From a virus: a stretch of DNA of 25,984 bases. This document shows, one piece after another, positions 1,556-22,701 of this stretch. Within the stretch, counting starts at the first letter, position 1. The number at the start of each line of letters is the position of its first letter. The notes beneath the pieces are model-generated. The model was not told where the DNA came from, searched no databases, and saw only the letters and a program-made list of their open reading frames with translations. The stretch is taken from the IMG/VR virus record IMGVR_UViG_3300031974_000241, positions 1-25,984 of that record. One strand, given 5' to 3'. The translations under genes and the position numbers were made by a program.

Positions 1556-1660
1556 ATGGATATATTCGTTGTAGATTGCGATTCTTGTTACCACCCTTAC
1601 TGGGAGGATGAGTTGGTGAATGGACTATGTCCAAGATGCCAAGAGTTTGAAGAAGAATAA
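1556..1660 (+). CDS. 34-residue acidic zinc-ribbon protein
   Basis: The short reading frame encodes a protein with two cysteine knuckles, C8-x2-C11 (CDSC) and C25-x2-C28 (CPRC), the classic four-cysteine zinc ribbon, ending in an acidic FEEE tail. It is the first gene after P1 and has a structured leader. No strong ribosome binding site precedes ATG 1556, so translation may depend on the leader structure. Similar tiny zinc ribbons occur widely in phages, usually with no assigned role; protein-protein or nucleic-acid contact is a guess. The spacing of the cysteines makes chance coding unlikely, but expression is unproven. It ends at an A9T7 tract. Confidence 0.6.
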   Translation: MDIFVVDCDSCYHPYWEDELVNGLCPRCQEFEEE

Positions 1661-2015: not shown

Positions 2016-2273
2016 ATGGCAACATATCAAGGTAAGTCAGTAACATTAAATAGTCCTTCTAGGATTAAGAAGGGCGAACCTGGGTATGGTCGTAAAAAAT
2101 TTAAAGTCTTTGTTAAAGATGGAGACAAAGTAAAAAAGGTTATGTTTGGAGACCCTAACATGGAGATTCGTAAAGATAACCCAGAAGCAAGAAAATCATT
2201 TAGAGCTAGGCATAAATGCGATACAGCGAAGGACAAGACAACACCTAGATATTGGTCTTGTAAAATGTGGTAA
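2016..2273 (+). CDS. Conserved marine-phage-type basic protein, 85 residues
   Basis: The protein is basic and compact, with a central KKFKVFVKDGDKVKKVMFG stretch likely to be beta-rich, and a C-terminal signature of Arg/His/Cys/Trp residues (RARHKCDTAKDKTTP, then YWSCKMW). I recognise this C-terminal pattern as recurrent in uncharacterised proteins of cyanophages and other marine phages, so it is a real family rather than a chance frame. Two cysteines and a histidine in the tail could bind a metal, but a full four-ligand site is not evident. It has no strong ribosome binding site of its own and starts one base after the previous stop, implying coupling. The location just upstream of terminase suggests a virion or packaging accessory. 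Function unknown. Confidence 0.8.
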   Translation: MATYQGKSVTLNSPSRIKKGEPGYGRKKFKVFVKDGDKVKKVMFGDPNMEIRKDNPEARKSFRARHKCDTAKDKTTPRYWSCKMW

Positions 2274-2400: not shown

Positions 2401-2496
2401 TTGAAAGTAAATTGTCCTAGGTGTAAACAACCACTATCTATTATTAATGGTAATGTAGGTTGTAAGAATAAAGAATGTAAGAATTATGTCAAATAG
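2401..2496 (+). CDS. 31-residue zinc-ribbon protein with TTG start
   Basis: The frame beginning at TTG 2401 encodes KVNCPRCKQPLSII and then a second cysteine pair (C21 and C26), a four-cysteine zinc-ribbon pattern in only 31 residues. The frame stays open upstream without an ATG or GTG start nearby, so the TTG is the best candidate. It follows the preceding stop by two bases and overlaps the terminase start by 11 bases. Its knuckle CPRC is shared with the 34-residue protein at 1556. Absence of a clear ribosome binding site keeps confidence low, but the cysteine spacing argues for a real protein. Confidence 0.4.
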   Translation: MKVNCPRCKQPLSIINGNVGCKNKECKNYVK

Positions 2497-4411
2497 AAAA
2501 ATATGTTACGCTGCAGGATGTAAAAGAGTATTAAGTGGCAATCGTAGAAAATACTGTAGCGATAGATGTGCTAATAGAATCCAGACACAAAAGAAAAGAG
2601 CTAAAGCTAAGGGCATAAAGTGGGTACAACCTGAAGAAGAAGAAATTGTAATACCTAGCCAAAGAAATGTACAAAGTCGTAGAGGTGTTGTTTATAACGA
2701 CCTCAAAGAATCTGGATTAGGCGAAGATATACTTAAAGGTAAGACTACAGTCAAAGATGTAGCAAAGATACTAGAAACATCTGTAGCAGCAGTATCTATG
2801 GCATATCAAGCATACTTAGAAGATTTAGAACAGAAAGCTGCACAAGATGAATGGCAACTACCACAAGTTGCAGAAAAGTCATTACAAGACTTTAGAGATT
2901 TTAGAGATAGATATTTCCAAACAGAAACTGGAGACCCATACGAAACACCAGACTTTCACATCAAGTGGATTAATTCTATCTTAGATGCAATAGAGCATGG
3001 TAATCAGCAGATGATACTATCTCCACCACGACATGGCAAGACTGACTTGTTAATACATTTTGCAGTATGGCTTATCTGTACAAAACCTAACATTAGAATA
3101 TTGTGGGTAGGTGGTAACGAAGAGATAGCAAAGAATGCAGTTAGTTCTGTATTAGACCAGCTAGAAAGTAATGAATTATTAATTGAAGAAATATGTGGAC
3201 CAGGACCTAAATTTAAACCAACGAGCAGGACAGGTAAGTCTTGGTCGCAAAATGGTTTTACTGTTGGTACTCGTACTGTTACTGGTATCAAATCTCCTAC
3301 CATGGTTGGTATAGGTAGAGGTGGAAAAATTCTATCAAGAGACTGTGATTTAATTATTGCAGACGACATTGAGGACCACTCATCTACTATGCAACCAGCG
3401 TCAAGAGAGAACACAAGAAACTGGTGGACTACAACACTATCAAGTCGTAAAGAGGAACATACAGCTATGGTAGTTATAGGTTCACGACAGCACTATGACG
3501 ATTTGTATTCACACTTGTTAGATAACGAATCATGGTTAACGATTGTAGAAGAAGCACATGACACAGGTTGTAACTTACCTGATTGGGATAATGAATTACA
3601 TAAAGAGTGTATGTTATGGGCAAAGAAGAGAACTTACAAATGGTTAATGGATAGAAAGAAAGCTGCAGAGACTACAGGTGGTAGAGCAATATACGAAATG
3701 GTATATCTGAATGTAGCTATGCCTGATGGTATGTCATTGTTTGACAGACCAGAGATAGAGGAATGTAGAGACCAAAACAGAGACATAGGACATATACCAC
3801 ATAATGTTAGATTGATTGCAGGTCTTGACCCAGCATCTACAGGATATCAAGCAGCATTCTTATGGGGATACGACCAGAATACAGATAAGTTGTACATGAT
3901 AGATATGGAGAACAGTTTAGGTGGTGGTATTCCAGTAGCACTAGAAATTATAAAAACCTGGTTTCAAAAATATAACTTAGCACATTGGGTTATTGAAGAG
4001 AATGGATTCCAGAGAGCAATTAGACAAGATAAATCAATTCGTGAGTTTGCAGGTAAGCATGGTATATTTTTAGAAGGTACACAGACTTATGGTAACAAGC
4101 ATGACCCAGTGTATGGTGTTACAGCTATGAGACCATTGTTTGAACAGAAGCTAATTAATTTACCTTATCGTAGCTTTGAAGCACAAGAAAAGGTAAACTT
4201 ATATACAAGTCAGTTAGTGTATTTTAGTTCTGCACAAAATAAGAGTAGAACTGTAGGACAGAAGTCTGACTTAGTTATGGCAAGTTGGTTTCCTATGAAA
4301 ACAATAAGGCGTTTACAAAAGGAAAGACTTGCTACAATGGGTATGGAATATGAACCTAGTTTTAGTGGTTATGAAGGACTAGGCATAGACATTGATGTTT
4401 GGAGAACATGA
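2486..4411 (+). CDS. terL: Terminase large subunit with zinc-ribbon and HTH-like N-terminus
   Basis: This is the packaging motor ATPase and DNA nuclease (641 residues). The Walker A motif is SPPRHGKT (179-186), Walker B is LIIADD (289-294), and RNase H-like nuclease acidic residues are plausible at D448 (GLDPAST), E504/E505 and D595. The N-terminus is unusual: C7, C12, C24 and C28 form a zinc-ribbon-like site, and residues about 84-113 (TVKDVAKILETSVAAVSMAYQ region) look like a helix-turn-helix. No separate small terminase is evident, so this N-terminus might supply DNA recognition. The length is longer than a typical large terminase of about 450-550 residues because of this extension. It overlaps the portal start by four bases (ATGA), indicating coupling. 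The motor assignment is firm; the exact catalytic residues are read by eye. Confidence 0.93.
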   Translation: MSNRKICYAAGCKRVLSGNRRKYCSDRCANRIQTQKKRAKAKGIKWVQPEEEEIVIPSQRNVQSRRGVVYNDLKESGLGEDILKGKTTVKDVAKILETSVAAVSMAYQAYLEDLEQKAAQDEWQLPQVAEKSLQDFRDFRDRYFQTETGDPYETPDFHIKWINSILDAIEHGNQQMILSPPRHGKTDLLIHFAVWLICTKPNIRILWVGGNEEIAKNAVSSVLDQLESNELLIEEICGPGPKFKPTSRTGKSWSQNGFTVGTRTVTGIKSPTMVGIGRGGKILSRDCDLIIADDIEDHSSTMQPASRENTRNWWTTTLSSRKEEHTAMVVIGSRQHYDDLYSHLLDNESWLTIVEEAHDTGCNLPDWDNELHKECMLWAKKRTYKWLMDRKKAAETTGGRAIYEMVYLNVAMPDGMSLFDRPEIEECRDQNRDIGHIPHNVRLIAGLDPASTGYQAAFLWGYDQNTDKLYMIDMENSLGGGIPVALEIIKTWFQKYNLAHWVIEENGFQRAIRQDKSIREFAGKHGIFLEGTQTYGNKHDPVYGVTAMRPLFEQKLINLPYRSFEAQEKVNLYTSQLVYFSSAQNKSRTVGQKSDLVMASWFPMKTIRRLQKERLATMGMEYEPSFSGYEGLGIDIDVWRT

Positions 4412-6192
4412 AAACAGCAGAAGAATTATATAGCAGGGTATACGAGCTAAGGTCATTACACGCAGACTACGCAGCAGATAAAGAAAACATCAGAGCCATT
4501 ATGAATGGTGGAGCTGATGGACTTAAAGCATTGTTGGGTAAAGATATGCGAGACATGGACTATAAGCAATTACCTGCACCTAACTTATTAATGTCATCAC
4601 TAGAAAGATTTGCACAAAAGTTAGGTAGAGCACCAGACTTAAAAGTTGATATATACAATGATAAAGATTCAGAGAGAGCTGCTAAGAGAGCAGAGAAGTT
4701 AGAGAGAATTGTACATTCCTATGATGGAATACAAGAATTAGATTTACAATTACCACAAGTTGGTAGATGGCTACCAGGTTATGGTTTTGCAGTATGGATA
4801 CTTAAAGAAAAGAAAGATGCTAATGGAATACCATATCCAGTAGCAGAGCTTAGAGACCCATATCAATGTTACCCAGGATACTTTGGTGTTGACCAACAAC
4901 CTAAAGAGTTAGCAGTTGTATCAAGAGTACCTCATGTAACTCTTGCTGAGATGTATCCAAAACACAAAAATGTAATACTTGATGAAGTATCTAGTGAATA
5001 CAATACTATGGCATATTTGTCTAGCTATGACGAAGGTTGGGCTAACGCAGATGGCACAGGTAAAGTAGTTGCAGAATATTATGATGAAGATGGAACTTAT
5101 GTGTTCCTACCAGAAAACAAAATTATATTAGATTTTATACCTAACCCATTAAAATCAGGACCAAGATTTGTCGTGGCAAAGCGTTACAGCTTTGACCAAA
5201 TGCAAAGTCAATTCCATCATGTGATTGGATTGATGGCTAATATGGCAAAGATAAATGTTCTATCTGTCATTGCAATGGAAGATGCTGTGTTTACAGAAAC
5301 CAACATCATTGGGGAGATAGAATCTGGACAATATAGAAAAGGTAGATTCGCTGTTAACTACTTGACCCCAGGGTCTCAGGTTAGCAAACCAACTAATAAT
5401 TTACCTTATCAGTTGTTTCAACAGATAGATAGACTAGAAAGACACTTGCGACTAGGTTCAGCATATCCAGTGTCAGATGATGGACAATCGCCAAATGCGT
5501 TTGTTACAGGTAGAGGATTAGAAGAACTAGGACAGTCTGCTTCATTACATGTAAGAGAATATCAAACAGTATTGAAGAAAGCATTAGAACAGATTGACTC
5601 TAAGAGATTAGAGTGGGATGAGATAATGTATGGTGGTTCAAGAAAACCTATGGCAGGTTTTAGGAATGGAACTGCATTTAAAGAAACATACGACCCAAGC
5701 ATTGATATTGCAGAAATGTATAAGACTAGAAGAGTCTATGGTGTTATGGCAGGTTTTGATGAAGCACAAAAAGTAATTACTGGATTGCAATTATATCAAC
5801 AAGGCATAATTGATAAACAAACATTACAAGAGAATATGGATGGATTAGATAACATATCTCAAATAGATAACAGAATTAATGCAGAGAGAGCAGAAAATGT
5901 ATTATTTGAATCATTGATGCAACAAGCTGCACAAGGTAATCCTAAAGCAACTATGGCAGCAATAGAAATAAGAAAGAATCCTCAGAATATGACTGCTATA
6001 TTAGATAAGTTTTATACACCAGAAGAACCAGAAATGAGTCCTGAAGAGGAAGCATTAGCTGGATTAGGTGGACCACAAGTACCACAGGCAGAACCAGATA
6101 TAGCTAGTGTATTAGCACAACTTAGTGGTGGATTACCACCAGAGCAAGTAGCTGCTGGACCTGGTTTACCAATAGGAGGACCACTTGGCTAA
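4408..6192 (+). CDS. Portal protein
   Basis: Residues are counted from ATG 4408, which overlaps the terminase stop as ATGA; an in-frame TTG at 4399 is possible but less usual. The 594-residue product has the size and position of a portal: immediately after terminase, mixed alpha/beta, with a helical segment rich in Glu/Lys/Gln (around SLHVREYQTVLKKALEQI) resembling the wing-to-stem region, and a C-terminal Pro/Glu/Gly-rich tail. The portal forms the dodecameric channel at the capsid vertex through which DNA enters and leaves. No independent motif is decisive, so the call rests on context, length and sequence character. Its last bases contain AGGAGG (6174-6179), the ribosome binding site for the next gene. 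Confidence 0.78.
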   Translation: MKTAEELYSRVYELRSLHADYAADKENIRAIMNGGADGLKALLGKDMRDMDYKQLPAPNLLMSSLERFAQKLGRAPDLKVDIYNDKDSERAAKRAEKLERIVHSYDGIQELDLQLPQVGRWLPGYGFAVWILKEKKDANGIPYPVAELRDPYQCYPGYFGVDQQPKELAVVSRVPHVTLAEMYPKHKNVILDEVSSEYNTMAYLSSYDEGWANADGTGKVVAEYYDEDGTYVFLPENKIILDFIPNPLKSGPRFVVAKRYSFDQMQSQFHHVIGLMANMAKINVLSVIAMEDAVFTETNIIGEIESGQYRKGRFAVNYLTPGSQVSKPTNNLPYQLFQQIDRLERHLRLGSAYPVSDDGQSPNAFVTGRGLEELGQSASLHVREYQTVLKKALEQIDSKRLEWDEIMYGGSRKPMAGFRNGTAFKETYDPSIDIAEMYKTRRVYGVMAGFDEAQKVITGLQLYQQGIIDKQTLQENMDGLDNISQIDNRINAERAENVLFESLMQQAAQGNPKATMAAIEIRKNPQNMTAILDKFYTPEEPEMSPEEEALAGLGGPQVPQAEPDIASVLAQLSGGLPPEQVAAGPGLPIGGPLG

Positions 6193-6421: not shown

Positions 6422-6737
6422 AAAACCTAAAGTAGATGGTGCATTCCAAGATGCAGTATTAAAACCAATTCCAGGCACTGGAGATTTTGGTTCTTACACA
6501 CAACAAGAAGAACAAATAGCTGCAGTACCTATGATTAAAGATGAAGTAATGGCTACAGGTGGTATGCCACAATACACACCAGAAGATATATTATCTAAAC
6601 CAACTGAAAGAGCAGATGAGCCAGGAACTTTTGATAGCACACCACAACAAGCTGTAAGTATGCCAGTAGGCACAGATACACAAATATTAATAGAGCTAAT
6701 TAAGGAAAAAGCACCAATAACAATTCAGAGGTTTTAA
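6408..6737 (+). CDS. 109-residue protein of unknown function
   Basis: I chose ATG 6408 because GAGGA (6395-6399) lies eight bases before it; in-frame ATGs at 6393 and 6399 lack such a site. The protein begins MPGGRKPKVDGAFQDA and is rich in Pro, Thr, Gln and Gly, with a more helical acidic/basic end (ILIELIKEKAP). It looks largely disordered, as many small virion linkers are. Start overlaps the preceding gene by 14 bases, and its stop overlaps the next ATG (TAATG). No family recognised. Confidence 0.65.
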   Translation: MPGGRKPKVDGAFQDAVLKPIPGTGDFGSYTQQEEQIAAVPMIKDEVMATGGMPQYTPEDILSKPTERADEPGTFDSTPQQAVSMPVGTDTQILIELIKEKAPITIQRF

Positions 6738-9700
6738 TGAACATTTTTAATAAATGGAATAAAGACTTCTATGAAAAGCATGACGAAAATCTTGCTTATA
6801 ATAAAAAGAAAGATGCAATTAAAGCTAATACTGATTTAGACGCACTTACACAAAACTTTCAAGATTTAAAAAACTTAACACCATTAGAAATGGATGAGTT
6901 AGTAGTATCAGCAGCAGAGCTAAATGTTACACCACAACAATATTATGAATTGTATAAAACTACTAAACCTGTACAAGTAAATATTACAAATGGTAAACCA
7001 AATGCTGTATTGGATTATTTAAAGAAAGTACAGAAAACAATTCGTAATAATCAAAAAATATATGATGAGACTAAGAAAAAATTAGGATATGACAAAGGTG
7101 GTAAGTTCTTTACTCAGTCAATATTTATGGGTCTTAACAGTGTATTTGATGTTATACAAAGAGGTGGAGTAAATCAATTAGCAACACCATACACACAGTT
7201 TGAAGATGAGATACTTGCTAAACAAGGATTAACAAGACAAGACCTTATAGAGTTTGAAAAAAAAGGTCGTAATGAAAATCAACAAGAATGGAAATCTGCA
7301 GGTATTAGAAGTTTAGCGTTTGCAAAAACTGTATCACAATACTTGTCAGCAGCACCAGAAACATTATTAAATATATTTGGACTAGACACACCTGCTGAAT
7401 CACTAACAGATATAGAAAGCAGGTCTAAAGCGTGGTTAGCTTCACAAGGTGTTGTAGATGCAGATGGTGAAGGATATATACAAAAAACAGATATAGAAGC
7501 TGCTATAGAAGCAACAAGAGACAATACTCTTGATGAAATACGAATACAAGAAAAAGAGTTACAAAGAGAATTAACTACAACAGAAAAAGTAAGTTTAGCT
7601 TTAAATAACTGGTATGACATTGTTACAGAAGAAGTATCTCCTAATCCTTTACTTAATGTACTAGGAGAATCAACACCAACAGCACAAAATAGAAAACTAA
7701 GAGAAGGATATGAGAGAGCACAGATATCTTCTAACTTAGGTGATTTTGCTAGTTACTTAGTTACAGGAAACATGCCAGGTAGATACTCACCAGAAAACAT
7801 TATGTATGAAGATACACACCAGCTATATGATTTAAAGATACTACAAGCAGAACAAGCATTTGATAGAGGAGAAATATCTATAACACAGAAAAATAAACTT
7901 GTAGATGAATTAGAAGATGAAAGAGATGAAGAACTAAGCAAGATTGCATTTGAACCTAATAAAGGTTTATCTGGAATTATGGGTGGTTTTATGAACTTAG
8001 TATCTATGTACTACACTGACCCATTTGTATTTGCAGCAAAAGGTGTTGGTCTAGGTGGTAAAGTACCAGAAAAATTTGATGAAGTACTTGCTGGTGCTCA
8101 AAAAGAAATGAAACGCTTTGTAGATGAAGGTGGAACTGTAGCAGAGTTTTGGCAAAACAATGATGAGATACTTGATGGTTTATCTACTGTTATTGTAGAA
8201 GCTAACAAACAAGGACAACCTACATTCTTAAATATGATTAACGCAGGATTTAATCATAAGTTTGCAAAGACTGTAGCTGATGCAACTGACCCTGCAATTA
8301 TTAAAGATGGTCTTATAGATGGATTTAATAATGGTTATGTATCAGATATGGTGTTTGGAAAGTCATCATTAGGAAGAACAGGACAATTTAGAATACAAGC
8401 AAAAGTTATATCAGATAATTTAATTAGAGCATTTGGAGATAAAGATTTAGATAACAGTGTTACTGCAACAGGTAGAAGAGGTGGAACGCTAAAAGAATTA
8501 ATTAATGGTACAGATGTTAGATTACCTAATCGTGGAATGATAGATGTACGAAACATACAAGAAGCAGCAGTAATGTTTGCAAGAGTAGGTAATGTATTTA
8601 AAGTACCTGAAAGTCGTTTAAACAAGCTGTTAGTAGATTTCTATGATGCTGCTGATGAAGGTTTATATACAAAAGCACAAGATATTTATTATGATGGTTT
8701 GCTTAGAACAGAAGGTGCATTACAACTTAGATACTTGTATGGATTGTCTGATAAAGAGATAACAGAGTTCTTTGGCAATATGAAACAAGGTCCAAGAATG
8801 TTTAGTGATGATGTAGGAGATTTCTTAACACCATCAAGAACAGATGAGTTTTACCCTGTAGATGAAATAGATATTCTTACACAAAAACAATTTGGTGGAC
8901 AAGTAGAAGGTATAGATATACCACAAGAATTTACTAGAAACTCTATAGAGCTAATTAATCAATTTAGAGGTTTTACTATTGAAATACCAGATGTAGTAGG
9001 AATTATTAAAACTACATCACAAAGAAGAAGATTAAGAGCTAAAGCATTAATTGAAAAAGAAGGTATTGATAAAGTATTTGCTAAAGCTAGACAAGCCTAT
9101 GAACAAGGTAAGCCAGGAACATTCTGGGATGCAGATACTCCTATAGGAGAGATAATATCTAATATTGCACCAGGTCTAGGAGACCCAGGTATATTGTTTA
9201 AAGGACAAGAGACAATATTGTCTGCTATAGAAAAAGGTACTTTTGGTTTAGTAAGAGGTGTATTCTATCCACTACAGTTATTAGGTAGATTTTCTTATCC
9301 TGCAAAATTAACAATAGATGGAAACCTAAGAGCAGCGTTATTAGGCGTTAGGTCAATGTTTAGAAGTCCATTAAAGTTTTTAAAATACTTACTTAATGAT
9401 TCACAAGGTGTAGTAGCAAGAGCATTGGGATATACACCAGAAACATCTTTGGTAGGACCATATAAGAAAACTAAACCATTAGAGTTTCAAAATCCACAGC
9501 TACAAGGATTAAATGAAAAATTACCAATGTCTATAAGAAAAGCATTAGGTGTATTACAAGACAGTGCAGACTATGGAATACCAGAGTTGCAATCATTGTC
9601 ATCTGCATCACCAACATTTGCATTTGGTAGAAGATTTCCAGACTCAGGATATGAGTTAATAAATAAACTAGGAACAAAAGATGTTCCTATGCCAGATGGT

Positions 9701-12700
9701 GTACAAGCATTTAAGTTATCAGATGAATACATAGAAGCTGTACAAGAATACTTGTTTGAATACATTGATGATGACTTAGCTATGATTACAGCAGCATTAA
9801 TGAAACAAGGATTAGATTACACAGATATTGCTAAATTTTATGCAGATACACCTGCAGTACAAGCAATAATAGAACAAGCTAATAAGATGATGCAATCAAG
9901 AAATGTATATGCTAAAGGTATATTACCAATAGTTAGTAAACCAGAAGATTATCAAAAGTTAGCTAAACATTATGTACAAAGCATAAACAACATTAGTGGT
10001 GGTAGTGCAGACTTCATAGACATTATTGCTACAGGTAAAGTAGGTAGAGTAGATTTGCGTAGCACAGATTCTATGACACCAGATAACCTAGCTGTGTACA
10101 ATGCTAAAGTAAAAAAACTTACACTAAAAAATCAAAGTAAGATGCCTAATCAAGTTCCTAAGATAAAACCAGAAGTTGATGAAAGAAAAGGTTATCAAAA
10201 AGCATTAGACGCATTATTCTTTGCTACTGCACAAATGGAAGCAGACTTAATCAGAGTACCTTTGTTTAAACAAGGTTATGAACATTTTATAGAAGCAGGT
10301 ATTCCATTTACATCTAAGCAAGGTCTTAACAAAATAATGAATGCTCACTTAGACCCAGAGTCATCTATCAATCTTAGTGATGATGTATTTAAATTAGTAC
10401 AAGATGAATACAACGCTATAAAAGATTTAGCACCAGACTTAGCTGTTACAGAAAGAACTGTACCTGTAAAAGTGTTTGATAATGGAGATTCACTATCCAT
10501 AATTGGATACAGTGAAAATGGTCAAAAACAAATTACATCACTTAAAAGATTAGACACAATGAATGATGAACTTACATTTGACTTAAACTTGTATAACACA
10601 GAGCTTAAAGTATTTAAAAAACAATCTGCTGTAGCTGACTATAGATTAGGTGATGATGGAGATGCTATAGGTGTCTATAACTTTTCTGTAAATAAATCAG
10701 AAGCTATTGTTAATGGTGCTATACCAGATAAAGATGCACTTGTTAGAGCAGTAACTAATGCGTTAGATGAAAGTGTAAATGCAGAAGCATTAGTAGATGA
10801 AGCAATAGATTACTTAGCTAAGAGTCAAGGTAAGTTTGATAAAAACATTACTAAGAAGGAATTGTTTGAAGTATTAGGTATTGATGGTTCTACACCAAAT
10901 GTAGTAGGTCTAAAAGTTAAATTACAAAAAGGTAAGACAACTGCAAAAGTAAAAAATGCACAAGGTGAAATAACACATGATGTTGGTATCACAACATTAA
11001 ATAGAGTGTTAGGAAAGAAAGCATCAAGACCAATTCTCAGAAAAAAAGCAGAAACACAAGATGCTATTGATAGAGCATACGACTGGATAGAATCACATCC
11101 TGAAGGTTGGAGTATAGATTTAGGTAAGAAGAAGAATACACATATACCTGGATATTATGTATCTCCATACAAAACAAAAGAAGTTGTATTAGATACACCA
11201 GTTACAAAAAAACAAATAGAAGATTTTATAACTAAAAATAAAACATTGTTAAAAAAAGAGGACCATGTTTTAGGTGGTTGGATAGAAAACAATAAGTTAT
11301 ATCTTGATGTATCTATAAGAGTTAAAAAAGGTGTAGCTGCACAAGTAGTAGATGGCACAGATGAAGCACTTGCTAAAGCACAATACATAGCAATACTAGG
11401 AGACCAGAAAGCTATAGGTAATGTAACAATATCAGGTTTTGCAGGAGAGATAGCTAGTGATACTGCTGGAGCATTAGATACTATTAGAAGGTCAGGACAA
11501 GACTTACTTATAGGCTCTAACAAAAAACTGTTACCAACTAATAAAGCTATTACATTACCAAGAGCAGGAGCTGTAATAGGTAATGATGTACTACAAGCTG
11601 CAGGTATTAGAGCAATCGTAGATGAAAAAGCAGGTGTTGTTAAATTACTTAAACCACAAAACAATCCAATACTAGATAAAACATTTAGTGGTGATTATCA
11701 GTCTATGTTAGATTTGTCAGACATTAAGTCTGCTACTACACCAAGAGTTATGTCTATGGAAGATTTGCATGAAAGAGCTGTAGAGTATGCTTTTGAGTTG
11801 CACTCTAGGTTATTGTATAACTTAACAGAACGAGGGTTTTTCTCACAAGCATATAGAGTAGGGTTTGCATTTTTTGAAGCATGGCGTGAGGTATTAGGTA
11901 GATACTACAACTTAGGTCTAGCTAATCCAAAAGCTGTAGCACAAATAGGATTTGGTTATAGAAAAGGTATAGAGCATAACTTTATATATGATGACCCAAC
12001 AGGAGAAAAGTATTTAATAATACCAGTAGGTGGAACACCATTTGAAGATTATGTTAAAACAGAAGGTAGGGGTGCATTTACAGATGATATGGCACTTGCT
12101 GATTCTAAAATTATTGCTAAAAGAGGAATACCACTTAGTGCATTGAATGTTGGTGGTGGTGGATTGTTCCCACCTGTAGGACCAGCTATTGCCTTGCCAG
12201 TAGGTTTTTTAGTTAGAAACAAACCTAAAGCTAAAAAGAATTTAGAGAAATATATATTTGGTGGATTTGAATTATCAGGTGCAAGAATTGATTCAGGAGA
12301 AAGTTTTCTTGGTGTATTAGCAGAAACAGCAATACCATCAGTTGGTAAAAATATGATAAACGCATTATCTACACAATTTTTTGATAGTCCAGGGTTAGAT
12401 GAGGACCAATGGTTATCTTCTGTTAATACTGCTTATCAAGTTGCAGGTGTATTAAGACCAGATTTAGCAGATGATAAAGAACAATTAGAAGTTGTAGCTA
12501 TGACTTTAGCAGCTAATTTTTTCCAATTAAAAGCGTGGGATAGATTTGTAAATCCATTTATACCAAGAATGTCTATTATGTATGCAATAGAAGGTAATGA
12601 AGTTGCTTTTGCAGAATGGTATGGAACTAAAGGTGAAGATAGTGGTTTGGTATATAACAACTTTGTAGAGTTGTCAGTTATACATGGTTTTTATCAAGAT

Positions 12701-13579
12701 ATTAAAGATGAGTATGTAATGACACTAGGACCACAAGGTGAGTTTTATGCGTTGTTAGAAGTAGCTAAATTATTAGGTTTAGATACAAGAGACTTATCAG
12801 AAGGATTTACTTCTACTGCATTACAGATAAAAGGTAAGAATATATCTGAAGGTGGAATACTACCAAGAACTACACCAGAATATGATTTTGTTATAAGCAA
12901 TCCAGAACTAGCTGCAGATTATGGTCCAGTGCTTACATTGTTTGCACCAGGATTAGACGAAGGTTCAGTAGAGTATGGTGGCGTAAGCTATATAGCTAAC
13001 CTAGGATTGTTTACACCTAAGACAGCTAATGAATTTTATGTATCTACACAAACATTTCTTGCTAGTGCAATAGAAACTGCAACAAAAGATTACTGGTCAA
13101 CAGTTATAGATAACAGTACTACTGACCCAGGAGAAAGAGTTGCTAGAAAGAAAGCTAAGTTTGCACTAATAGAAGCTGATTTAGCACAAATGTTTCCTAT
13201 GGCTTATGGTAATTCTGCAGAACTAAACAAGGTATTAGGTTCTGATTATGAAACAGGAGTACCAAATGATGTACTTATTGATTACTTAGAAAGAGCTGTA
13301 CAAGACCCAAGGTTTGATAACTTTGATAATAGAAATGAAATAGCACAATATCTTAACTTTAGAGCACAAGCAATAGATGCAGTAGCAGATAAAAGAGGTT
13401 ATCCAATAGAAGAAGATGCTATGAGATGGATAAGTACAAGTGATACTATACAAGCACAAGAAGTTAGAAATCAGCTCTATACTAAAGCACAGGAAATAGG
13501 AAGAAAAAATCCTAAATTTTTGGTAATATTTGATAGAGTATTTGCTTACGAATTAACCAGATTTGGATTAGAAGGATAA
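6737..13579 (+). CDS. Giant internal virion protein, 2280 residues
   Basis: The largest gene of the window (6.8 kb) starts at ATG 6737, coupled by TAATG to the previous stop and preceded by AGAGGT. The product is long, mostly helical and soluble-looking. A conserved-looking segment at about 835-890 (FYPLQLLGRFSYPAKLTIDG and following LRAALLGVRSMF) resembles, from memory, large virion proteins of actinobacterial and marine phages. Around 1490-1530 there is a segment with GYYVSPYKTKEV and GGWIENNKLYLDVSIRV that I have seen in other large phage polyproteins. Around 1797-1828 there is a Gly/Pro-rich hydrophobic stretch that could enter a membrane. No protease, transglycosylase or nuclease motif is certain. 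Size and position suggest an ejected internal protein analogous in role to T7 gp16, or a scaffold for such a core; a tape-measure role is less likely because typical coiled-coil repeats and TM clusters are lacking. Confidence 0.75.
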   Translation: MNIFNKWNKDFYEKHDENLAYNKKKDAIKANTDLDALTQNFQDLKNLTPLEMDELVVSAAELNVTPQQYYELYKTTKPVQVNITNGKPNAVLDYLKKVQKTIRNNQKIYDETKKKLGYDKGGKFFTQSIFMGLNSVFDVIQRGGVNQLATPYTQFEDEILAKQGLTRQDLIEFEKKGRNENQQEWKSAGIRSLAFAKTVSQYLSAAPETLLNIFGLDTPAESLTDIESRSKAWLASQGVVDADGEGYIQKTDIEAAIEATRDNTLDEIRIQEKELQRELTTTEKVSLALNNWYDIVTEEVSPNPLLNVLGESTPTAQNRKLREGYERAQISSNLGDFASYLVTGNMPGRYSPENIMYEDTHQLYDLKILQAEQAFDRGEISITQKNKLVDELEDERDEELSKIAFEPNKGLSGIMGGFMNLVSMYYTDPFVFAAKGVGLGGKVPEKFDEVLAGAQKEMKRFVDEGGTVAEFWQNNDEILDGLSTVIVEANKQGQPTFLNMINAGFNHKFAKTVADATDPAIIKDGLIDGFNNGYVSDMVFGKSSLGRTGQFRIQAKVISDNLIRAFGDKDLDNSVTATGRRGGTLKELINGTDVRLPNRGMIDVRNIQEAAVMFARVGNVFKVPESRLNKLLVDFYDAADEGLYTKAQDIYYDGLLRTEGALQLRYLYGLSDKEITEFFGNMKQGPRMFSDDVGDFLTPSRTDEFYPVDEIDILTQKQFGGQVEGIDIPQEFTRNSIELINQFRGFTIEIPDVVGIIKTTSQRRRLRAKALIEKEGIDKVFAKARQAYEQGKPGTFWDADTPIGEIISNIAPGLGDPGILFKGQETILSAIEKGTFGLVRGVFYPLQLLGRFSYPAKLTIDGNLRAALLGVRSMFRSPLKFLKYLLNDSQGVVARALGYTPETSLVGPYKKTKPLEFQNPQLQGLNEKLPMSIRKALGVLQDSADYGIPELQSLSSASPTFAFGRRFPDSGYELINKLGTKDVPMPDGVQAFKLSDEYIEAVQEYLFEYIDDDLAMITAALMKQGLDYTDIAKFYADTPAVQAIIEQANKMMQSRNVYAKGILPIVSKPEDYQKLAKHYVQSINNISGGSADFIDIIATGKVGRVDLRSTDSMTPDNLAVYNAKVKKLTLKNQSKMPNQVPKIKPEVDERKGYQKALDALFFATAQMEADLIRVPLFKQGYEHFIEAGIPFTSKQGLNKIMNAHLDPESSINLSDDVFKLVQDEYNAIKDLAPDLAVTERTVPVKVFDNGDSLSIIGYSENGQKQITSLKRLDTMNDELTFDLNLYNTELKVFKKQSAVADYRLGDDGDAIGVYNFSVNKSEAIVNGAIPDKDALVRAVTNALDESVNAEALVDEAIDYLAKSQGKFDKNITKKELFEVLGIDGSTPNVVGLKVKLQKGKTTAKVKNAQGEITHDVGITTLNRVLGKKASRPILRKKAETQDAIDRAYDWIESHPEGWSIDLGKKKNTHIPGYYVSPYKTKEVVLDTPVTKKQIEDFITKNKTLLKKEDHVLGGWIENNKLYLDVSIRVKKGVAAQVVDGTDEALAKAQYIAILGDQKAIGNVTISGFAGEIASDTAGALDTIRRSGQDLLIGSNKKLLPTNKAITLPRAGAVIGNDVLQAAGIRAIVDEKAGVVKLLKPQNNPILDKTFSGDYQSMLDLSDIKSATTPRVMSMEDLHERAVEYAFELHSRLLYNLTERGFFSQAYRVGFAFFEAWREVLGRYYNLGLANPKAVAQIGFGYRKGIEHNFIYDDPTGEKYLIIPVGGTPFEDYVKTEGRGAFTDDMALADSKIIAKRGIPLSALNVGGGGLFPPVGPAIALPVGFLVRNKPKAKKNLEKYIFGGFELSGARIDSGESFLGVLAETAIPSVGKNMINALSTQFFDSPGLDEDQWLSSVNTAYQVAGVLRPDLADDKEQLEVVAMTLAANFFQLKAWDRFVNPFIPRMSIMYAIEGNEVAFAEWYGTKGEDSGLVYNNFVELSVIHGFYQDIKDEYVMTLGPQGEFYALLEVAKLLGLDTRDLSEGFTSTALQIKGKNISEGGILPRTTPEYDFVISNPELAADYGPVLTLFAPGLDEGSVEYGGVSYIANLGLFTPKTANEFYVSTQTFLASAIETATKDYWSTVIDNSTTDPGERVARKKAKFALIEADLAQMFPMAYGNSAELNKVLGSDYETGVPNDVLIDYLERAVQDPRFDNFDNRNEIAQYLNFRAQAIDAVADKRGYPIEEDAMRWISTSDTIQAQEVRNQLYTKAQEIGRKNPKFLVIFDRVFAYELTRFGLEG

Positions 13580-21690: not shown

Positions 21691-22701
21691 ATGGCAGCAA
21701 TAGCTTCCCCAGACCCAATCTCAGTAAGTGAGATTAACAATTTTACTGGTGAACTGTTTAAAGTTGGTGCAAGAAGAACACCTCTACTATCAATGGTTGG
21801 TGGTTTAACAGGTGGTAAACTTCTTAATTCTCCAGTATTCCAAACACAAAAAGTTGACACTCCAACAGTTAGTGGTTACACAACCCTAGCAGAAGGTGGA
21901 ACTCCAACATATTTTGGTAGAAGCAGAAGTTCTGCAATAGACTGTGTCCAAATCTGGAATCAAGGTGTAAAACTCACCTATTCAGCATTAGGCTCTACAG
22001 GATATTTGAACTCACAAGCTATGGAATCTGGAACAGCAGCTTTTGAAGGTTCTAACCCAATCAATGATGAAATGGCATTTCAATTAGAAGAGCTACTCAG
22101 CAAAATCGCAAGAGAAGTTGAGTATGAGTTCTTTAATGCTACATTCAATGATGGTACAGATGGTAACCCAAGAGAAATGCGTGGAATCGCAGAATGGGTA
22201 GCTTCTGGTAATGGTTCATCAGCTTATGCACACGATACAACAGGAGATGGACTAGGTTCAGCTCAATCATTAGACTACACAGCAATATCAGAAACATTAA
22301 AATTAATGTATGATGCTGGTGCTCCAATGCAAAACCCAGTCTTGTTCGCAAGACCAGGTTCAATCCTTGACTTAAACCAAGGTTTAGTATCACAAGGTAA
22401 CCAAAAAATGGCAGTATTACCAAGAGATAGAAATATCGCTGGTATTAACATTGATTCAATCATTACTCCATTTGGTAACATTGGATTAGTCGTTAATGAG
22501 TTTGTTCCTGCAGACCAAGCATTCGTGCTTGACCTTGCATTCCTTGATGTTTGTTTCTTGAACATCCCAGGAAAAGGTGCTGTATTCGTAGAAGATACAG
22601 ACAATGATGATGCAGCAGCAATCTCAAAGCGTGTATATATGGAAATTGGTCTTGATAAAGGACCTGCAGAATATCACGCAGTAATTAATGGCGTAAGCTA
22701 A
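21691..22701 (+). CDS. Major capsid protein (HK97-fold, probable)
   Basis: The 336-residue product has the usual size, the strongest ribosome binding site in the operon (TAGGAGA, seven bases before ATG) and the right position after scaffold. The N-terminal RRTPLLSMVGGLTGGK, the long helix region ELLSKIAREVEYEFFNATFNDG (about 130-150) and the C-terminal beta-rich domain resemble HK97-fold capsid proteins of the SU10-like type, by my recollection. It builds the icosahedral shell. Codon use differs from neighbours: about half of the 20 Ile codons are ATC, whereas ATA/ATT dominate elsewhere, consistent with very high expression. A hairpin lies just before it and another just after, which suggests message-level control. 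No separate decoration gene is seen. Confidence 0.85.
   Translation: MAAIASPDPISVSEINNFTGELFKVGARRTPLLSMVGGLTGGKLLNSPVFQTQKVDTPTVSGYTTLAEGGTPTYFGRSRSSAIDCVQIWNQGVKLTYSALGSTGYLNSQAMESGTAAFEGSNPINDEMAFQLEELLSKIAREVEYEFFNATFNDGTDGNPREMRGIAEWVASGNGSSAYAHDTTGDGLGSAQSLDYTAISETLKLMYDAGAPMQNPVLFARPGSILDLNQGLVSQGNQKMAVLPRDRNIAGINIDSIITPFGNIGLVVNEFVPADQAFVLDLAFLDVCFLNIPGKGAVFVEDTDNDDAAAISKRVYMEIGLDKGPAEYHAVINGVS

Follow-up and report, generated by a model that had tools for sequence, protein, structure and literature searches.

A sizeable clade of uncultured marine phages, with more than 500 members detectable in IMG/VR, probably relies on a zinc-ribbon and DNA-reading domain of the large terminase (TerL) itself in place of a separate small terminase (TerS). 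The usual view of tailed phages is that most require a separate TerS to recognise their own DNA. Here a module comprising a zinc ribbon and a helix-turn-helix (HTH) domain precedes the ATPase within the TerL chain, and on balance we lean towards regarding the TerL of this clade as a self-sufficient single-polypeptide terminase, in which the N-terminal module would do the DNA-recognition job of TerS. Were this so, nature would have provided a minimal terminase, in which TerL recognises DNA by a domain of its own and works without a ring; the ring would then be dispensable, and recognition, cutting and packaging could be studied with one purified protein. The fused architecture would also account for the lack of annotated TerS genes in these phages. 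No description of a naturally fused TerS and TerL appeared among the matches listed from the open-access (PMC) literature, and DNA recognition by TerS, like the reason for its ring, is described as still debated (PMC9611059).

An N-terminal module on a T7-like large terminase

The window, i.e. the whole stretch of DNA analysed here, is an entire record, a linear viral fragment of 25,984 bases. Its plus-strand open reading frame at 2486-4411 encodes a protein of 641 residues that matches PHROG_38 (E = 1.1e-64, PHROG profile search), scores above the Pfam cut-off for Terminase_6C (PF17289) and has PDB sequence matches to T7 maturase B (4bij) and to 8dgc. Walker A (residues 178-186, a leucine followed by SPPRHGKT at 179-186; 3017-3043) and Walker B (DLIIADD, 288-294) are both conserved, and the RNase H-like nuclease domain (residues 446-599; 3821-4282), assigned from the PF17289 match and from invariant columns, retains the invariant acidic residues D448, E504 and D595. 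By these sequence features the frame is a T7-like large terminase, with both the ATPase and the nuclease, to which an N-terminal extension has been joined.

The earlier note placed a Cys4 zinc ribbon at the start of this extension, and comparison with relatives confirms it. The ribbon occupies residues 5-42 (2498-2611), with C7, C12, C24 and C28 as the putative ligands and no further cysteine in the translation (2486-4408) until residue 198; residues 1-63 are basic, with 16 K/R vs 5 D/E. Relatives were gathered stepwise (80 close, 80 soil, eight genome contigs, and up to 80 plus 76 intermediate marine sequences), and TerL was present in 313 loci, from which 25 with the gene cut at its 5' end and eight failing the Walker A pattern were dropped, leaving 208 marine and 72 soil proteins. 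The zinc pattern occurs in 204 of the 208 marine 5'-intact TerLs and in none of the 72 from soil. Three of the four marine misses keep four cysteines with a longer first loop (C-x9-C), and the fourth (L067) has a broken N-terminus. Across 50 diverged marine N-termini the ligand columns are cysteine at C7 in 48, at C12 in 50, at C24 in 49 and at C28 in 50, the single change at position 24 being to histidine, still a possible ligand. Nor is the pattern common in these genomes: the window and five relatives together have 130 ORFs of 150 aa or more, and in these it appears within the first 60 residues six times, each time in a TerL.

Over seven pairs with the window, dN/dS was 0.047 for the ribbon and 0.054 for the core, as against 0.199 for the HTH and 0.335 for the linker; by this measure the ribbon is constrained as strongly as the motor, while the faster evolution of the recognition part relative to the core fits a reader of DNA sites. 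The zf-CGNR family (PF11706) scores 18.2 bits in the window N-terminus, under the curated cut-off of 24, and matches 13 of 50 members (best E 1.4e-6). Conservation of all four ligands suggests that the ribbon binds zinc.

After a linker of approximately 20 residues, the HTH domain (residues 64-125; 2675-2860) starts with an invariant R66-G67. AlphaFold2, run on residues 1-188 with 50 aligned N-termini (mean pLDDT 81), predicts helices at 26-41 in the ribbon and at 68-76, 78-84, 89-96 and 100-121 in the HTH; block pLDDT was 82-92 over residues 11-40 and 92-96 over 71-120, with 54-58 not confident. These helices, with the high pLDDT at 71-120, bear out the earlier suggestion of an HTH-like stretch near residues 84-113 and extend it to about 68-121. 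A similar stretch can be read by eye in diverged representatives, and Pfam HTH families match 20-22 of 50 marine members. VIA-align superposes residues ~65-124 on sigma-28 region 4, a LuxR-type domain and an archaeal transcription factor (Z 5-5.6), while Foldseek returned nothing for the module below E = 1 (best E 1.1), and no TerS structure is among the matches listed for it by Foldseek or by the second alignment. Because the matched folds are small and common, the result says HTH rather than TerS; according to the model, the marine module belongs to a DNA-binding HTH fold class. The profile searches point the same way: against PHROGs the marine HTH matches DNA invertase families in 20 of 50 members and transposase families in 8 of 50, with TerS families in at most 3 of 50 (best 5.9e-4), so that by sequence the marine HTH taken by itself is weakly TerS-like. 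Searched alone against 50,697 phage records (tblastn), the module had no match at E<=1. The predicted helices 100-121 and 127-143 lead directly into the ATPase domain, without obvious room for a stalk.

Soil relatives, comparison terminases and exchange of the module

Among the listed matches to named records of the phage collection, the best are Streptomyces podoviruses of the Beephvirinae, the group of Abafar, which a passage of PMC11536984 describes as a podovirus by electron microscopy. The TerLs of Immanuel3, Dennebes and Abafar (PHROG_38), with about 25% whole-protein identity to that of the window, likewise have an HTH fused before the core. Immanuel3 and the window have the gene order TerL, portal, giant protein and capsid in common, and the virion genes phrog_7578 and phrog_7813 are common to the window and the Streptomyces podoviruses. 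In Immanuel3 TerL is gene 1, and there is no TerS among its 84 annotated features. In contrast to the marine clade, the Streptomyces podoviruses are without the zinc ribbon and carry an endolysin gene between TerL and portal, and their HTH, unlike the marine one, is clearly TerS-like by profile: the soil/Streptomyces TerL N-termini match phrog_4044 in 9 of 13 cases (best 5.5e-8) and phrog_4102 also in 9 of 13 (best 6.3e-7). Comparison of the marine and soil profiles gave 92% for the global alignment, which includes the core, and 49.6% for the HTH alone. On the global alignment the marine HTH occupies the position of its TerS-like counterpart in the soil clade, in register up to the ATPase.

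The genes that make up this shared order in the window are assigned with differing assurance. The 597-aa protein at the portal position (4399-6192, plus strand) is identified by position only, being downstream of TerL as in Immanuel3, and has no PHROG match better than E 0.17; the major capsid protein (21691-22701, plus strand) matches phrog_1328 (E = 7.7e-31). Downstream of the putative portal, a 2280-aa protein (6737-13579) has no PHROG match at E<=0.01, and a giant protein of ~1,650 aa (gene 9) occupies the equivalent place in Immanuel3. Immanuel3 (L178:16040-17988) also has 22 tRNA genes arrayed within its structural module; ARAGORN found no tRNA genes in the window.

Twelve comparison TerLs were used, ten of the 60 matches listed in one search and two of the 40 in another. 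Their Walker lysine lies at residue 58-97, compared with 164-185 among 17 representatives of the marine clade and 157 for Immanuel3, the last being the sole true soil length since soil rows were limited to 150 residues before Walker A. All 12 are without the N-terminal extension, a lysine at 58-97 leaving no room for the module. The core of the window TerL resembles that of the T7 terminase (maturase A/maturase B; 4bij), yet the T7-like comparators differ from it in having a separate TerS of 85-87 aa and the Walker lysine at 65-66. An annotated TerS adjoins TerL in six of the 12 (Jayden, PhiCh1, Pony, BIS33, Quill and Erwinia 12); the tree label 'separateTerS' was applied to all 12, six with and six without an annotated TerS in the stretch covered. 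In the TerL-core tree the marine and soil sequences each form a clean clade (support 100/100 for both), and the two are joined against the comparators with weak support (80/45), a result compatible with one fusion or with two.

Within the marine clade the module can, on the evidence of one contig, be exchanged independently of the motor. The L179 module is 80-82% identical to those of L303 and L308, against 65% for the cores of the same pair; with L017, L179 is 82% identical in the core and 33% in the module. In AU tests the module data reject a grouping of L179 with its core relatives (p 0.0024) and the core data reject one with its module relatives (p 6e-44), for groups that were picked after the identities were known; the clear exchange is that of this one MAG contig. 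A second exchange, of the L063 type, is not claimed: L063 is 73% identical to L243 in the module and 82% in the core, and 42% and 87%, respectively, to the window, but the core data do not reject the simple grouping (AU p 0.314). The exchange seen in L179 fits a proposal, made in a paper on Sulfitobacter phage PhiGT1, that small terminases are under diversifying selection and are themselves drivers of recombination of terminase genes (PMC10386132). The TerL of L179 (8001-9914), in which the module of another lineage sits atop a window-like core, has also one zinc-ligand cysteine changed to histidine.

The search for a separate small terminase

The earlier note had seen no separate TerS. This holds for the window, although the absence proves little there because the window is a linear fragment, and we accordingly turned to longer relatives. 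The two ends of G005 (40,541 bases) meet inside a single tail gene (residue 267 / 269), G009 (42,650 bases) has ends that overlap inside the giant gene, and G008 is without ~110 residues of its capsid gene. Both G005 and G009 are essentially complete and circularly permuted, though end repeats were not found. No TerS was recognised in G005 down to E 0.006 among the best 25 PHROG families (31 of 48 ORFs scanned, each of at most 420 aa), nor in G009 by a PHROG scan of 35 of 57 listed ORFs, which matched 15 families in all; a corresponding scan of Immanuel3 (45 of 62 CDS) matched 55 families, of which the best 25 are listed.

Twenty whole records were also searched by profile (11 soil IMG/VR records, Immanuel3 and eight marine). 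The TerS profile phrog_4044 is matched in 9 of the 20 and phrog_4102 in 5 of the 20, in every case inside a TerL-sized frame (637-698 aa) and nowhere else, and neither is matched in any of the eight marine whole records. Both profiles also match control genomes (10 of 14 and 9 of 14, respectively, with E-values unstated), and weight is therefore placed on the position of the matches and not on the bare E-value. Their confinement to TerL frames constitutes the strongest evidence that the soil HTH is the fused DNA-binding part of a TerS. When the marine and soil HTH profiles were run against the TerS genes of neighbours and the ORFs of relatives, TerLs only were found below E 0.01. Other families contribute less: PF03592 is matched in none of the 20 records; the T7 TerS family PF11123 is matched in none of 15, a weakly informative negative since 7 of 14 control genomes match it below cut-off; and phrog_2538, which gives weak matches in 4 of the 20, of which three fall outside TerL-sized frames, is uninformative because it matches all 14 control genomes.

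TerS proteins are hard to recognise and diverge strongly, so a free TerS could be missed. The principal alternative, that a separate TerS exists which is too diverged to recognise and that the module merely assists, for example by docking to it, is in our estimation unlikely, though it is the strongest of those considered. In its favour counts a 2019 paper reporting that a small terminase had for the first time been identified in a gene transfer agent (PMC6854486), and two candidates can be put forward. The first is an 85-aa protein (2016-2273, plus strand; phrog_7595, E = 1.2e-16) encoded in the slot usual for TerS, whose gene is the best conserved there, being kept upstream of TerL in 88 of the 133 relatives with comparable upstream ORFs. 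Its AlphaFold2 model (pLDDT 89), however, consists of beta strands and short C-terminal helices with no HTH, and has no Foldseek match at E<=0.001; as neither the model nor the fold search gave it TerS features, it was rejected as a TerS. In the soil clade, moreover, TerL is not preceded by any conserved ORF of 80 aa or longer; the most populous cluster takes in 6 of the 48 loci that have such ORFs. The second candidate, a small HTH protein of 70-108 aa encoded in the early region of four of five relatives (G005, G006, G008 and G009), is the weaker one: it lies on the opposite strand and distant from TerL, its HTH is C-terminal, and it matches transcription-regulator and HTH profiles weakly.

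Few small proteins of the clade are as well conserved as the phrog_7595 protein, in which F44, G45, F62, A64, R65, H66, W80 and W85 are invariant, and very diverged versions are encoded upstream of other marine TerLs. The early HTH protein of G005 (L165:8642-8965) is 108 residues long, and its HTH is at the C-terminus; G008 and G009 have shorter versions of it, and in all three genomes the gene adjoins an early gene of ~300 aa. Two tiny zinc ribbons upstream of TerL, which the earlier note had proposed might act with it, are not supported as partners, given their patchy conservation: the 31-aa CxxC ORF at 2401-2496 (plus strand), the stop of which overlaps the TerL start, occurs in 67 of 201 relatives, and the 34-aa CxxC...CxxC ORF at 1556-1660 (plus strand) in 10 of 201.

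Proposed packaging by one polypeptide, and other genes

The interpretation in the earlier note is supported in part, and its suggestion that one polypeptide does both jobs gains appreciable support. The fused HTH is clade-wide, the soil HTH is matched by TerS profiles and no free TerS was recognised among the ORFs scanned in the essentially complete relatives; against this, the marine HTH is weakly TerS-like. Our best reading is that the marine lineage adds a zinc ribbon to a TerS-like recognition domain fused to the motor, and operates without a TerS ring. As to the wider proposition, that the marine lineage and the soil actinophages, separately or by common descent, both do without a TerS ring, with reading, cutting and pumping of the DNA all done by a single chain, and that the marine cassette is an interchangeable specificity unit, we regard the arguments as evenly balanced.

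With free TerS proteins that have an N-terminal HTH (PHROG 4044, 4102 and 1482; the SF6, PaP3 and P76-26 types in a passage of PMC9611059) the marine module would share the HTH as DNA reader; it differs from them in having no recognised oligomerisation core or stalk, and in being encoded inside the TerL frame rather than by a gene of its own. The herpesvirus terminase, in which the zinc-finger TerS pUL28/pUL56 wraps the TerL ATPase (PMC9611059), similarly has its motor in physical union with a recognition part that binds zinc, but its subunits are separate proteins, its TerS is large and all-helical, and there is no known homology; it may serve as an analogy and not as a relative. 

In a single-polypeptide mechanism, several TerL copies would assemble via their HTHs on concatemeric phage DNA at a packaging site, where the basic zinc ribbon and linker could steady the module or supply extra DNA contacts. 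The RNase H-like domain would make the first cut, after which the complex would dock on the portal and the ATPase domains would translocate the DNA. With neither a separate TerS ring nor its helical oligomerisation core recognised, the TerL oligomer itself would supply the avidity. That the module binds DNA, does so at specific sites and replaces TerS is what we infer from the evidence above; it could instead bind nucleic acid or protein for some other job, e.g. autoregulating the late genes, restraining the nuclease, or docking to the portal or the capsid. The families that the HTH matches (Crp, LuxR, sigma region 4) are indeed generic DNA-binding ones, and in other phages the N-terminal parts of terminase subunits carry protein contacts as well. 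We nevertheless consider such a role improbable, and more so than a diverged TerS, as the marine module occupies the same place as the TerS-like HTH of the soil clade, with register kept to the ATPase (92%), and is both faster-evolving than the core and exchangeable, as expected of a specificity part. That the extension is an artefact of a wrong start codon or of chance cysteines, as the weak-looking ribosome-binding site before 2486 (judged by eye) might be taken to indicate, is scarcely credible, given that 204 of 208 homologues keep the zinc pattern and that dN/dS is 0.047 from residue 5 onward.

Two further observations concern the genomes themselves. In L165 and L171 (G005 and G009; 40-43 kb) the early genes on the opposite strand include no ORF of DNA-polymerase size, as judged by eye from ORF sizes. 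At the start of the window, the minus strand at 4-738 encodes a protein of 244 aa that has a C-terminal CxxC and an HEVSH motif resembling that of metalloproteases; it matches phrog_6361 and, weakly, Pfam metallopeptidase families, and is conserved in G005.
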